From assembly GCA_021793315.1 (NCBI GenBank), contig JAJYSZ010000029.1:1-33768 (forward strand): DNA of 33,768 nucleotides, in the 5' to 3' direction. The position numbers and the translations under genes are program-made. Below, one piece after another: positions 3,927 through 15,424 of the stretch. Origin of the DNA: Bacillota bacterium. Lineage in GTDB: Bacteria; Bacillota; Sulfobacillia; JAJZYS01; JAJYTV01. The notes under the pieces are model-generated. The model ran no database searches and was not told the origin of the DNA. It saw only the letters and a list, made by a program, of their open reading frames with translations. Positions within the stretch are counted from its first letter, which is position 1. Each line of letters begins with the position of its first letter.

Positions 3927-4299
3927 CGCGATCGGCCTCGCAGTCCTCCGTGCACCGGCTCCTGCGCGCAAGGCGCCGGCGGAGAAGGAGGAACGGCAGA
4001 GCCAGCCCCGTCGCAAGGCGCGGCGCCGGGTGCGCCTGCGCTTCGGCCGCCTGATGTTCGCCGCGGCGATCGCCTACCTTGTGGGCGCAGGGGCGATCGG
4101 TGAGCTTCAGCTGCTGCACGTGCAGGCGCAGGAGAGCCAAGTACTCCAGAAGCTTCACGTGGTCAAGGGACATGCCGCACAGATGAAGACCGAGTTGCGC
4201 CAGCTGAGGACGCAGACGGGCGAGGCCGAGGCGGTGCGGCAGGTCTTGCACTACGCGCCCAAGAGTGGCGCACCCGTGGTGATCACGGTACAGCACTGA
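3910..4299 (+). CDS. divIC: Septum formation initiator, DivIC/FtsB family
   Basis: Basic N-terminus, one TM segment (LMFAAAIAYLVGAGAI), then a coiled coil; position after yabQ matches the conserved order. Confidence 0.8.
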   Translation: MAKAADAIGLAVLRAPAPARKAPAEKEERQSQPRRKARRRVRLRFGRLMFAAAIAYLVGAGAIGELQLLHVQAQESQVLQKLHVVKGHAAQMKTELRQLRTQTGEAEAVRQVLHYAPKSGAPVVITVQH

Positions 4300-4418
4300 A
4301 GTGTGGCGTTCGGCGGTAGCCGGGCGAACAAAAGGGAAGGCTCCCGTTCGGGACCGTAGGGGAGATGCCGCCCATACGGGGAAGAGCGATGTCGCATGCC
4401 ATACGAGGAGGATGTCCG

Positions 4419-4754
4419 GTGGGCAAGATTCTTGTGCTGCTGAACGCCGGTAAGGAGGATCCGACGCGCGTGCGCTCCGGACTTGGCTTCGCAGGCGTGG
4501 CGAGCCAACGCCCGGACGTGGACAAGGTCGCCCTCATCTTCTTCGGCAATGCGGTAGAATTGTTGACCGATCCCGAGTATGTCGGCACAGCGGAGAAGTT
4601 TATCGAGCGTGGCGTCCTGACGCTGGCCTGCCAGGCGCATGCAGAGCAGAAGCAGATCAAGGACCAACTGAGCCAGGGTCCCGTCACGCTGAAGTACGTC
4701 GGCGAGGACATCGTGCGGCTGATCAACGAAGGATACCAGGTCGTCAGCTTCTGA
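4419..4754 (+). CDS. DsrE-family-like protein
   Basis: 'VGKILVLLNAGKEDPTRVRSGLGFAG...KVALIFFGNAVELL...ACQAHAEQ..VKYVGEDIVRLINEGYQVVSF' resembles the DsrE/DsrF fold. SD gaggagg at 4405-4411 precedes GTG 4419. Confidence 0.75.
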   Translation: MGKILVLLNAGKEDPTRVRSGLGFAGVASQRPDVDKVALIFFGNAVELLTDPEYVGTAEKFIERGVLTLACQAHAEQKQIKDQLSQGPVTLKYVGEDIVRLINEGYQVVSF

Positions 4755-4957
4755 AGGGGAGCCCATCGCGCTCCGCCGGTGAGGCGAGGGGCGTCAAGCC
4801 GCCCGGTGCGGCCGCGTTCGCCACGCGGCCGGGGTCGGATCGGCCCGGCTTTCTACCTCCGAGAAGTTGGCCTGCGCTTGACTGGACGCGCAGGACCTCG
4901 CTAAACTTCGTATCAGAGGTATTGGGCGAATCAGCCCAGTTGGAAAGCGGGGAGACT

Positions 4958-12852: not shown

Positions 12853-12938
12853 GCCGGGGTGGCGAAATGGCAGACGCAGGGGACTTAAAATCCTCCGGTG
12901 GAGACACCATGCGGGTTCGAGTCCCGCCCCCGGCACCA
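12853..12938 (+). tRNA. tRNA-Leu(TAA), CCA encoded
   Basis: gccgggg...ggacttaaaatcc...gttcgagtc..ccccggcacca; TATAAT at 12838-12843; hairpin 12942-12965 downstream. Confidence 0.95.
12880..12938 (+). repeat. Direct repeat copy 1 (att-like, inside intact tRNA-Leu)
   Basis: 59 nt, 56/59 identical to 15063-15121 by manual alignment. Confidence 0.92.
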
Positions 12939-12941
12939 GCT

Positions 12942-12965
12942 AAACCCGCATAGGAATGCGGGTTT
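12942..12965 (+). terminator. tRNA-Leu terminator hairpin
   Basis: aaacccgcat-agga-atgcgggttt perfect stem. Confidence 0.7.
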
Positions 12966-13470
12966 TAGCGATCGCCCCTGGCTCCAGCCGAGGGCGGTCT
13001 TGTTATGGTTGGCGCCATCCTGGTATGTCGGTCAACCCGGCCAGGGCGGCTGAGTGCCTTGGACAAGACCTCGACATCCATCGACAGAATGTGTCGAATG
13101 AAATACAAGTTAGTTCCACGGTCGTGAGCCTTAGCGACTTGTGTCCAAACGTCGAAAGGAGATCCTTTCGAACCGGCATTTGCGTCAAGTTCACCATGCC
13201 CCGCGGCGGGGCACCGTCGGGCATGAAAACAGGACATGGAGAGGCGACGCCAAAGGGGTTGAACGGCGTCTGTGCGGGTGACAGATTGCACGACTGCGCT
13301 CTCGCGCGGCGCCTCACCAAGACTGGGGTCCTCCACCGGGTGACCCCAGGTTCTTTGTGTGTGTCGCGCGTTCTCGCAGGGCCCTATTTTCGGGGCAGAT
13401 GGAGTTGCGTCGGAATGCGGCTTTCGGGCGCCTCCGCCGCACCACCCTTTTGGACCGAGGGCAGACGAAA

Positions 13471-13519
13471 AGGTGCAACCAGCCAAGCGTGATTGCACCT
13501 CGACAGACTGTGGTACATT
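13471..13519 (+). promoter_or_regulatory. Candidate promoter/operator of the cargo gene pair
   Basis: AGGTGCAA (13471-13478) and TTGCACCT (13493-13500), perfect inverted repeat; TTGCAC could be a -35 and TACATT (13514-13519) a -10 with a short 15-nt spacer. Confidence 0.45.
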
Positions 13520-13525
13520 AGTGCC

Positions 13526-14080
13526 ATGGACAAGCACGCCCACTTGACAAGGCAGTCGAACTGGTTCTGCGCGATGGGGCTGCGTAAGCTCGCCGTGCAG
13601 GAGATGGCACGCGTCACGGGCGACCGCTTGTGGCTCAAGCGAACCTGGGGCGACCGTGCCACGCTTCAGCATGTGCTGGAGTTGCCCGAACGCTTGGACA
13701 AGTGGAAGGGGGTCTGGCTGCTACTCAGCCGACCTACTGTGCTTAGGCACGAACTGCGGCACCATCGGGCTTCGCCAGCAGTGCAGGATGCCTTGTGGGT
13801 GCTCGATTGGCTGCGTGAGGATGCAACAGATCCAGACCTGCGGGCCTTGTCTTTCTGGCTGCAGAACATGCATCTGCGCACCGTCGTCACCGTGGGGGCT
13901 CCGAGCCGTCCGATGTCGGACCCGGTTCGGTTGCAGAAGTCTCTGTACCTCTTGGCATCTGGCATGAACGCCGCCGCTGCCGGCCATCGGTTCCACCGGT
14001 GGGGGTCGCAGCGATTCGACTTGACGCTGCTCCGACGTGGAGCTAGGAGGTTGAGTCGGGCATGGGTTTCCACGACCTGA
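13526..14080 (+). CDS. Unknown protein (184 aa), first gene of the two-gene cassette
   Basis: ATG 13526, no convincing SD (ORF track starts at TTG 13493); overlaps the next gene by 19 nt; no family recognised. Confidence 0.6.
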   Translation: MDKHAHLTRQSNWFCAMGLRKLAVQEMARVTGDRLWLKRTWGDRATLQHVLELPERLDKWKGVWLLLSRPTVLRHELRHHRASPAVQDALWVLDWLREDATDPDLRALSFWLQNMHLRTVVTVGAPSRPMSDPVRLQKSLYLLASGMNAAAAGHRFHRWGSQRFDLTLLRRGARRLSRAWVSTT

Positions 14081-14595
14081 GCGATGTCCGGGAGACCTTG
14101 CTAGCCCTCGACAAGGCACCCGAGCTACGCGACACCGCCGACATCACAATCCTGTTGATCGGCGGTGTCGCATTGTATTGCTACGGCATCAGCTACCGGG
14201 AGACCTCGGACATCGATGCTTTCCTCTCAGCAGCGGGGTCCGTACGGCAGACACTTGCCGGCGTGGCACATCGCTTCGGGCTGTTCTTCGATGGCGGAGC
14301 AGTCGGCTGGATGCCCGATGACTGGGATCAGCGAGCCCGACGGTTGAACTGGCCGTTGGAGCATCTTGTCGTTTGGGTGATCGACGAGTACGGCTTCATC
14401 ATCACGAAGATGGGACGGTGGGCCGGTCACGACCAAGAAGACGTGCGGCAGGTACTTCCGCGTATCAGCATGGAGAAACTTCGTGCGTATGTGCGGGAGC
14501 AGAAACCACTCTACATCGGTCGGTCGGAACACATCGACCAAACTTGGCGCGAAGTTTGCGAGATGGCCGGGCGCCTGGATCTCAACATGTTGTGA
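14062..14595 (+). CDS. Nucleotidyltransferase-fold protein (DUF6036/AbiEii-like)
   Basis: 'ITILLIGGVALYCYGISYRETSDIDAFLSA' = GG-x-A ... R-x-T-x-D-I-D motif; 'ITKMGRWAGHDQEDVRQVL' resembles the downstream helix of this superfamily. Confidence 0.75.
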   Translation: MGFHDLSDVRETLLALDKAPELRDTADITILLIGGVALYCYGISYRETSDIDAFLSAAGSVRQTLAGVAHRFGLFFDGGAVGWMPDDWDQRARRLNWPLEHLVVWVIDEYGFIITKMGRWAGHDQEDVRQVLPRISMEKLRAYVREQKPLYIGRSEHIDQTWREVCEMAGRLDLNML

Positions 14596-14648
14596 CGAAC
14601 GACCGTTGTCCCGTCTTGTCAGGCAATTCGGGCAGGAGTGGACACCAG

Positions 14649-14764
14649 ATGGATCAGCCAGGCGACACGTGCCTGACCACCTCGCAGGTCGCAGCGATGA
14701 CCGGGTACTGGTGAATGTCTTGCGCCGATGGTGCCAGACCGGACGCCTTGCGCCACGCGCGTAG
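14649..14764 (+). pseudogene. Frameshifted excisionase-like (MerR-type HTH) remnant
   Basis: Frame 1 'CLTTSQVAAMTGYW*', then from 14711 in another frame 'VNVLRRWCQTGRLAPRA*'. Adding one nt in tac-t.g-gtg gives 'LTTSQVAAMTGY(S/W)VNVLRRWCQTGRLAPR'. Confidence 0.7.
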
Positions 14765-14775
14765 GCCCCCAGGAC

Positions 14776-14912
14776 CAAGTAAAGTCGTGAGCATCTCCAA
14801 GATGTTGGACCACAAGAGCTTCGCGTTCACAGCGCAGGTCCATGCCCATGCCCACGTTCTTGACGCCACCATCCAGGCGGCGTTGTTCGACCTGCTCGTG
14901 GGAGATGAGTGA
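14776..14912 (+). pseudogene. C-terminal fragment of a tyrosine recombinase/phage integrase
   Basis: 'SKVVSISKMLDHKSFAFTAQVHAHAHVLDATIQAALFDLL' resembles the terminal KxVSKxLGHxSxxxTxxxYxH region; the N-terminal and most catalytic residues are absent. Confidence 0.7.
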
Positions 14913-15062
14913 ATGGCGCCATTGTTGGCGCCATTCTGCGCGGCGAACCGGGGGTAAACGGCGGTAACCGTGAGTATAGTCAATGGGGCTCAAACTCGCG
15001 CTACAACCGCATTCATGACTATTCCAGGGAACTGGTGGGTAAGCTCGGGGATTCCCGTCGAT

Positions 15063-15121
15063 GGGACTTAAAATCCTCCGGTGGCAACACCATGCGGGTT
15101 CGAGCCCCGCCCCCGGCACCA
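15063..15121 (+). repeat. Direct repeat copy 2: partial tRNA-Leu 3' half (att-like)
   Basis: gggacttaaaatcctccggtgg(ca)acaccatgcgggttcgag(c)cccgcccccggcacca; the 5' half of the tRNA is missing. Confidence 0.92.
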
Positions 15122-15424
15122 ACGAAAAACCGCATAAGACAGCGGGTTGCAGTGCTGCCCTCGGCTCCAGGCAGAGGGCAGTTCTCGTACTGGGTTGCTG
15201 CCATTCTGGTATGTCGGTTAGCCCGAGTACGACGAGGCTTACGTCATCGGAACCTCAGCGATGGCGCCTGCAGAGATTCTACCTGCGCGATCCGGGAGGT
15301 CTTCCGCTATCTACCCCGCAGCAGGGGACCAGTGATCAGGCTGCGGACTACTACAGCACAGAAGCTGGGGCGGGTTGCCTTAGTTTTGGCTATGCCGCGT
15401 CCCGTTAGGGAATCAGCCACCGAG

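Follow-up and report, generated by a model that had tools for sequence, protein, structure and literature searches.

A mobile pair of a DUF6036 nucleotidyltransferase and a new partner protein as a candidate AbiE/MenAT-like toxin-antitoxin module

Two overlapping genes lie inside an element integrated at a tRNA-Leu gene, and the question is whether they form a toxin-antitoxin or defence module, as an earlier note on this DNA had suggested. The window, the whole stretch of 33,768 nucleotides that was analysed, was compared with related genomes of the same class and with known nucleotidyltransferase systems. Comparative evidence makes it near certain that the two genes constitute a mobile two-gene module. 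That this module is AbiE/MenAT-like, with the second protein (P0002) as toxin and the first (P0001) as a new antitoxin family, is in our analysis somewhat better than an even bet, and the module may possibly act against phages.

Layout and expression signals of the gene pair

The P0001 gene (13526..14080, + strand) encodes a partner protein of 184 aa, the proposed antitoxin or regulator, whose homologues adjoin the nucleotidyltransferase. The P0002 gene (14062..14595, + strand) encodes the DUF6036 nucleotidyltransferase of 177 aa, the proposed toxin, assigned by Pfam, alignment, model and motif definitions. Both reading frames are on the + strand and share 19 nt (14062-14080), as first claimed. 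A strong Shine-Dalgarno sequence, AGGAGGT (14045..14051, + strand), is located within the 3' end of the P0001 gene, 10 nt before the P0002 ATG, and the sequence makes translational coupling of P0002 to P0001 likely. The junctions between partner and enzyme genes differ between loci, being a 19-nt overlap, a 32-nt overlap, an ATGA overlap or a 15-nt gap.

Upstream of the P0001 gene there is no Shine-Dalgarno sequence, and an extended -10 promoter element, TGGTACATT (13511..13519, + strand), ends 7 nt before the ATG, so the P0001 transcript could be leaderless. TGnTAyAnT is the textbook extended -10. Each of the four loci that hold an adjacent, unbroken pair has a match to this motif no more than 50 nt ahead of the partner gene, and the motif is absent upstream at both orphan partner loci (0/2); the pattern was set post hoc, after the sequences had been inspected, and its background for the four pair loci is 0.5-2% per 100 nt.

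The earlier note had suggested that the pair is possibly self-regulated, and had pointed to an inverted repeat carrying a possible -35. The repeat exists and is perfect, AGGTGCAA (13471-13478)-N14-TTGCACCT (13493-13500), covering 13471..13500 with no strand assigned. When the same 120 nt were shuffled, though, 4% of the shuffles contained a perfect inverted repeat of at least 8 bp with a gap of 3-30, as did 12% of 120-nt stretches drawn at random from this window, and the repeat was not found at any homologous locus. Occurring at chance level and unconserved, it does not support self-regulation, and it was set aside as an operator candidate. The possible -35 (TTGCAC) is only 15 nt from TACATT, and a sigma-70 scan returned no promoter at the repeat region. 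Judged on sequence, the conserved extended -10 is the better supported promoter candidate.

The tRNA-Leu element and other mobile settings

The integration target is a tRNA-Leu (TAA) gene identified by ARAGORN (12853..12938, + strand). The flanking repeats named in the earlier note were confirmed (12880-13039 versus 15063-15225), and between these tRNA 3'-end repeats lies an integrated element of 2,183 bp (12880..15062, + strand). The sister species G004 has the empty site: its tRNA-Leu runs uninterrupted into the downstream DNA, with one repeat copy. The right attachment repeat (15063..15225, + strand) consists of the displaced native tRNA-Leu 3' part and downstream sequence. Its tRNA part is identical to the tRNA of G004, whereas the intact left tRNA differs in its 3' part, which, starting at 12880, seems to be the copy that belongs to the element. 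A right copy that matches the empty site together with a left tRNA carrying the element version is the classic signature of tRNA integration.

As the earlier note had seen, the repeats enclose no intact cargo besides the pair; the remainder of the element is decayed. A frameshifted HTH_17/MerR-like remnant (14649..14762, + strand), recognised from translations and a weak tblastn match, weakly resembles an HTH region in another locus (L086) and may be the N-terminus of an excisionase or of an IS607-type resolvase. It is followed by a tyrosine integrase C-terminal remnant (SISKMLDHKSFAFTAQ..., 14789..14914, + strand), 70-73% identical at the protein level to the ends of integrases that are intact in sister species.

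Other copies of the pair are also found in mobile settings. An integrase adjoins the second copy in G396, and the G413 pair is beside a serine recombinase and an FtsK-like ATPase. The intact G396 pair is situated between a tRNA-Arg(CCT) and a cas7 gene (L043, G396:C1; 3807-3882 and 9337-10308), the cas7 gene being about 4 kb from this first copy. Directly upstream of the G020 pair is an AbiEii gene (L013, G020:C100; 2653-3603, - strand), whose nucleotidyltransferase product has a weak, below-cut-off N-terminal match to DUF6922. The elements of G413 (L040, 7098-7577) and G045 (L045, 8757-9431) have in common a second small nucleotidyltransferase gene, Polbeta/MNT-like, that is separated by a few kb from the DUF6036 gene.

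The same tRNA-Leu site is occupied differently elsewhere. In G002 an AbiEii-type nucleotidyltransferase gene with an overlapping neighbour of 166 aa (L099, G002:C292; 1222-2441, - strand) adjoins the same tRNA-Leu(TAA), before another tRNA 3'-end repeat, and is apparently an independent enzyme-partner pair at a shared integration site. The presence of such an AbiEii-type pair in a sister species suggests a turnover site for modules of this kind. Conjugation-type genes, including one for a TraG-like P-loop ATPase, were observed downstream of the same tRNA-Leu in the sister species G001 (L100, G001:C22; 7753-12700).

The two proteins and their distribution

P0002 belongs to DUF6036 (PF19502) with E=5e-16 and 59.4 bits against a Pfam gathering cut-off of 23.6, over 140 of the 164 family positions, which bears out the nucleotidyltransferase motif first noticed in the second protein. 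Its match to AbiEii (PF08843) is below cut-off (19.6 versus 22.5 bits) and is confined to residues 27-66, that is, motifs I-II. The motifs G34-G35-x14-D50-I-D52, K116 and H-D124-x-x-D127 are all present, and the positive residue ahead of motif IV is His. AbiEii enzymes are defined by hG[G/S]...DhD, a Lys and DxxD (PMC3985639), and MenT by the catalytic residues T39/D41/K137/D152, with the Thr two positions before the Asp (PMC10435456). The residues of P0002 follow the MenT catalytic order and spacing, including a Thr two before the Asp, and T48 occupies the MenT phosphoacceptor position. G34, T48, D50, D52, K116 and D124 are invariant across the five homologues of the enzyme alignment (A4); conservation among members is incomplete for R46 and for the second G in motif I. 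By this motif alignment the catalytic residues are intact, a point that the earlier note had singled out for checking. The predicted model of P0002 is good (pLDDT 83, pTM 0.82), and TglT/Rv1045 (6j7p) ranks second among its PDB matches (prob 0.84, E 0.06, TM 0.47); the fold is the expected one, but the match is weak. PDB sequence matches for both proteins were spurious and were rejected.

P0001 has no family in Pfam, NCBIfam, PHROGs or PADLOC, and five homologues likewise gave no family match. On sequence comparison it is the founder of a new partner family seen only in this bacterial class. Tryptophans, WEGPWLL-like motifs and RLERR motifs are conserved in the family, and neither an antitoxin domain nor a DNA-binding domain can be recognised in P0001. 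Six P0001 homologues share no invariant His and thus no conserved HEPN Rx4-6H motif, and no HEPN match was obtained. The model of P0001 is poor and mainly helical (pLDDT 55), so nothing is to be read into the fold, and a fold search with it gave no match. A match to P0001 in G043 fell in the rplT region on the wrong strand and was rejected.

Among 154 genomes of the class, leaving aside one weak partner match and two weak enzyme matches, the partner is present in seven, the enzyme subfamily in six and both in five. In all five shared genomes the genes are adjacent and in identical order, and the hypergeometric probability of this co-occurrence, with the relatedness of the genomes ignored, is about 2e-7. 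Co-occurrence of the 184 aa family with the nucleotidyltransferase, another check named in the earlier note, is confirmed, with adjacency and order kept. The pair is adjacent in four genera, and a decayed pair is found in a fifth; in 4/4 intact loci the partner gene comes first and either overlaps the enzyme gene or is separated from it by no more than 15 nt. Outside the class, no further credible members came from about 400 sampled genomes of the phylum or from 85,000 species covered by a pattern scan. The latter, run with the partner alignment, returned three records, all from loci already known in the class, and a scan of genome collections with P0002 alone had no match. In phage, plasmid and IMG/VR collections no relatives of P0001 were found, and those of P0002 amounted to one distant plasmid match.

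Orphans and broken copies bear on which half might be harmful. The partners in G398 and G414 are both unbroken, with no relative of P0002 detected there. The sole orphan enzyme (G045) has the second Gly of motif I changed to Glu (GG->GE) and D127 changed to H. Such changes would fit an enzyme that is the harmful half, although there is one case only. In G400 the pair is broken. In the second, degenerate copy of G396 the partner is broken, having lost its start codon and three of its tryptophan codons, but the enzyme reading frame is intact; this points against the enzyme as toxin unless the intact pair that G396 holds elsewhere in its genome acts in trans.

Proposed function and comparison with known systems

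Three other readings of these data were weighed. The roles could be reversed as in the type VII system HEPN-MNT, for which HepT/MntA is a known precedent (PMC7641770, PMC11586414), so that P0001 would be the toxin and P0002 an antitoxin silencing it by NMP transfer. The predicted mainly helical character of P0001 and its position as first gene fit this arrangement, but the family lacks the HEPN signature, two genomes keep the unbroken partner with no detected enzyme, and P0002 has AbiEii-type motifs III-IV, leaving role reversal improbable. Slightly less doubtful, yet still unlikely, is a two-subunit enzyme modifying RNA or protein on mobile elements, composed of a catalytic and a specificity subunit and serving defence or element housekeeping. 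P0001 has conserved motifs rich in tryptophan and arginine that could bind RNA or a protein, and the pair is associated with cas genes and methyltransferase-bearing elements; against this, orphans of each gene exist, which shows the genes to be separable, and toxin-antitoxin genes on mobile elements usually have this layout, a compact overlapping pair with a promoter of its own.

The pair in the window's genome might also be a non-functional relic of a decaying element, since everything around it in the element has decayed, other copies are broken (G400) or partly so (G396), and its third-position GC is lower than that of the neighbouring genes. We regard this as very improbable, because the reading frames, Shine-Dalgarno sequence, promoter motif and catalytic residues have stayed intact in the window whereas the integrase and HTH gene have decayed, a difference that suggests selection on the pair.

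Under the favoured AbiE/MenAT-like reading, production of P0001 from its own promoter would run a little in advance of P0002, which would be translated by coupling. P0001 would bind P0002, with its presumed DNA-polymerase-beta fold, and hold it inactive. It might do so sterically or, in the manner of MenA with MenT, by promoting autophosphorylation at T48. Loss of P0001, through element loss or phage takeover of the host, would set P0002 free to transfer a nucleotide onto an acceptor essential to the cell, tRNA 3' ends being the likeliest, and growth would stop. Binding, toxicity, target and phage defence are what we infer, with AbiE and MenAT as the analogy for P0002 as toxin. More specifically, we put forward tentatively, and at less than even confidence, that P0001 is a new antitoxin (or toxin) family controlling a DUF6036 nucleotidyltransferase by an undescribed mechanism; the pair would then be a new toxin-antitoxin or phage-defence system, restricted to this lineage and spread by elements that target tRNA genes. 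Such a compact mobile pair with a new partner family makes two questions directly testable: whether DUF6036 enzymes are toxins of the MenT/AbiEii kind, and whether antitoxins that differ widely converge in inhibiting the active-site Thr/Ser in the same way.

Pfam describes DUF6036 nucleotidyltransferases as 'of unknown function', and no paper mentioning them was found in the literature collection searched. Several other genes of the family in the phylum, and one in the window's genome, also have a small neighbouring ORF. Those of these partners that were tested are not similar to P0001 by profile comparison, and many DUF6036 partners are downstream rather than upstream; similarity of P0001 to AbiEii partners was likewise rejected. 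The window's genome has two more DUF6036 genes, L083 (G000:C68, about 981-2016), with an unrelated ORF of 146 aa directly upstream, and L084 (G000:C136, about 4076-4768).

HEPN-MNT resembles the pair in combining a nucleotidyltransferase with a small, predicted helical protein, and differs from it in the conserved Rx4-6H that P0001 lacks and in that P0002 is a DUF6036 protein. The likeness to MenAT (DUF1814; MenT1, MenT3/TglT, MenT4) comprises the fold match of P0002 to TglT/Rv1045 and the matching order of Thr at D-2, DxD, Lys and Asp. MenA antitoxins are diverse, and MenA1 also has no AbiEi/COG5340 winged helix; P0002, however, is in another Pfam family, P0001 is unlike any known antitoxin family, and a tRNA target of P0002 is only proposed. 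With AbiE (AbiEi/AbiEii; type IV toxin-antitoxin, abortive infection) the pair shares a two-gene operon with the putative antitoxin first and the enzyme motifs I-IV, including the R-x3-D-x-D spacing. It departs from AbiE in the sub-threshold AbiEii Pfam match of P0002, in a P0001 without the winged-helix AbiEi/COG5340 domain and in having no significant operator repeat. As the AbiEii match is below the domain cut-off and the partner has no winged helix, the pair is filed as an AbiE/MenAT-like variant rather than as a member.
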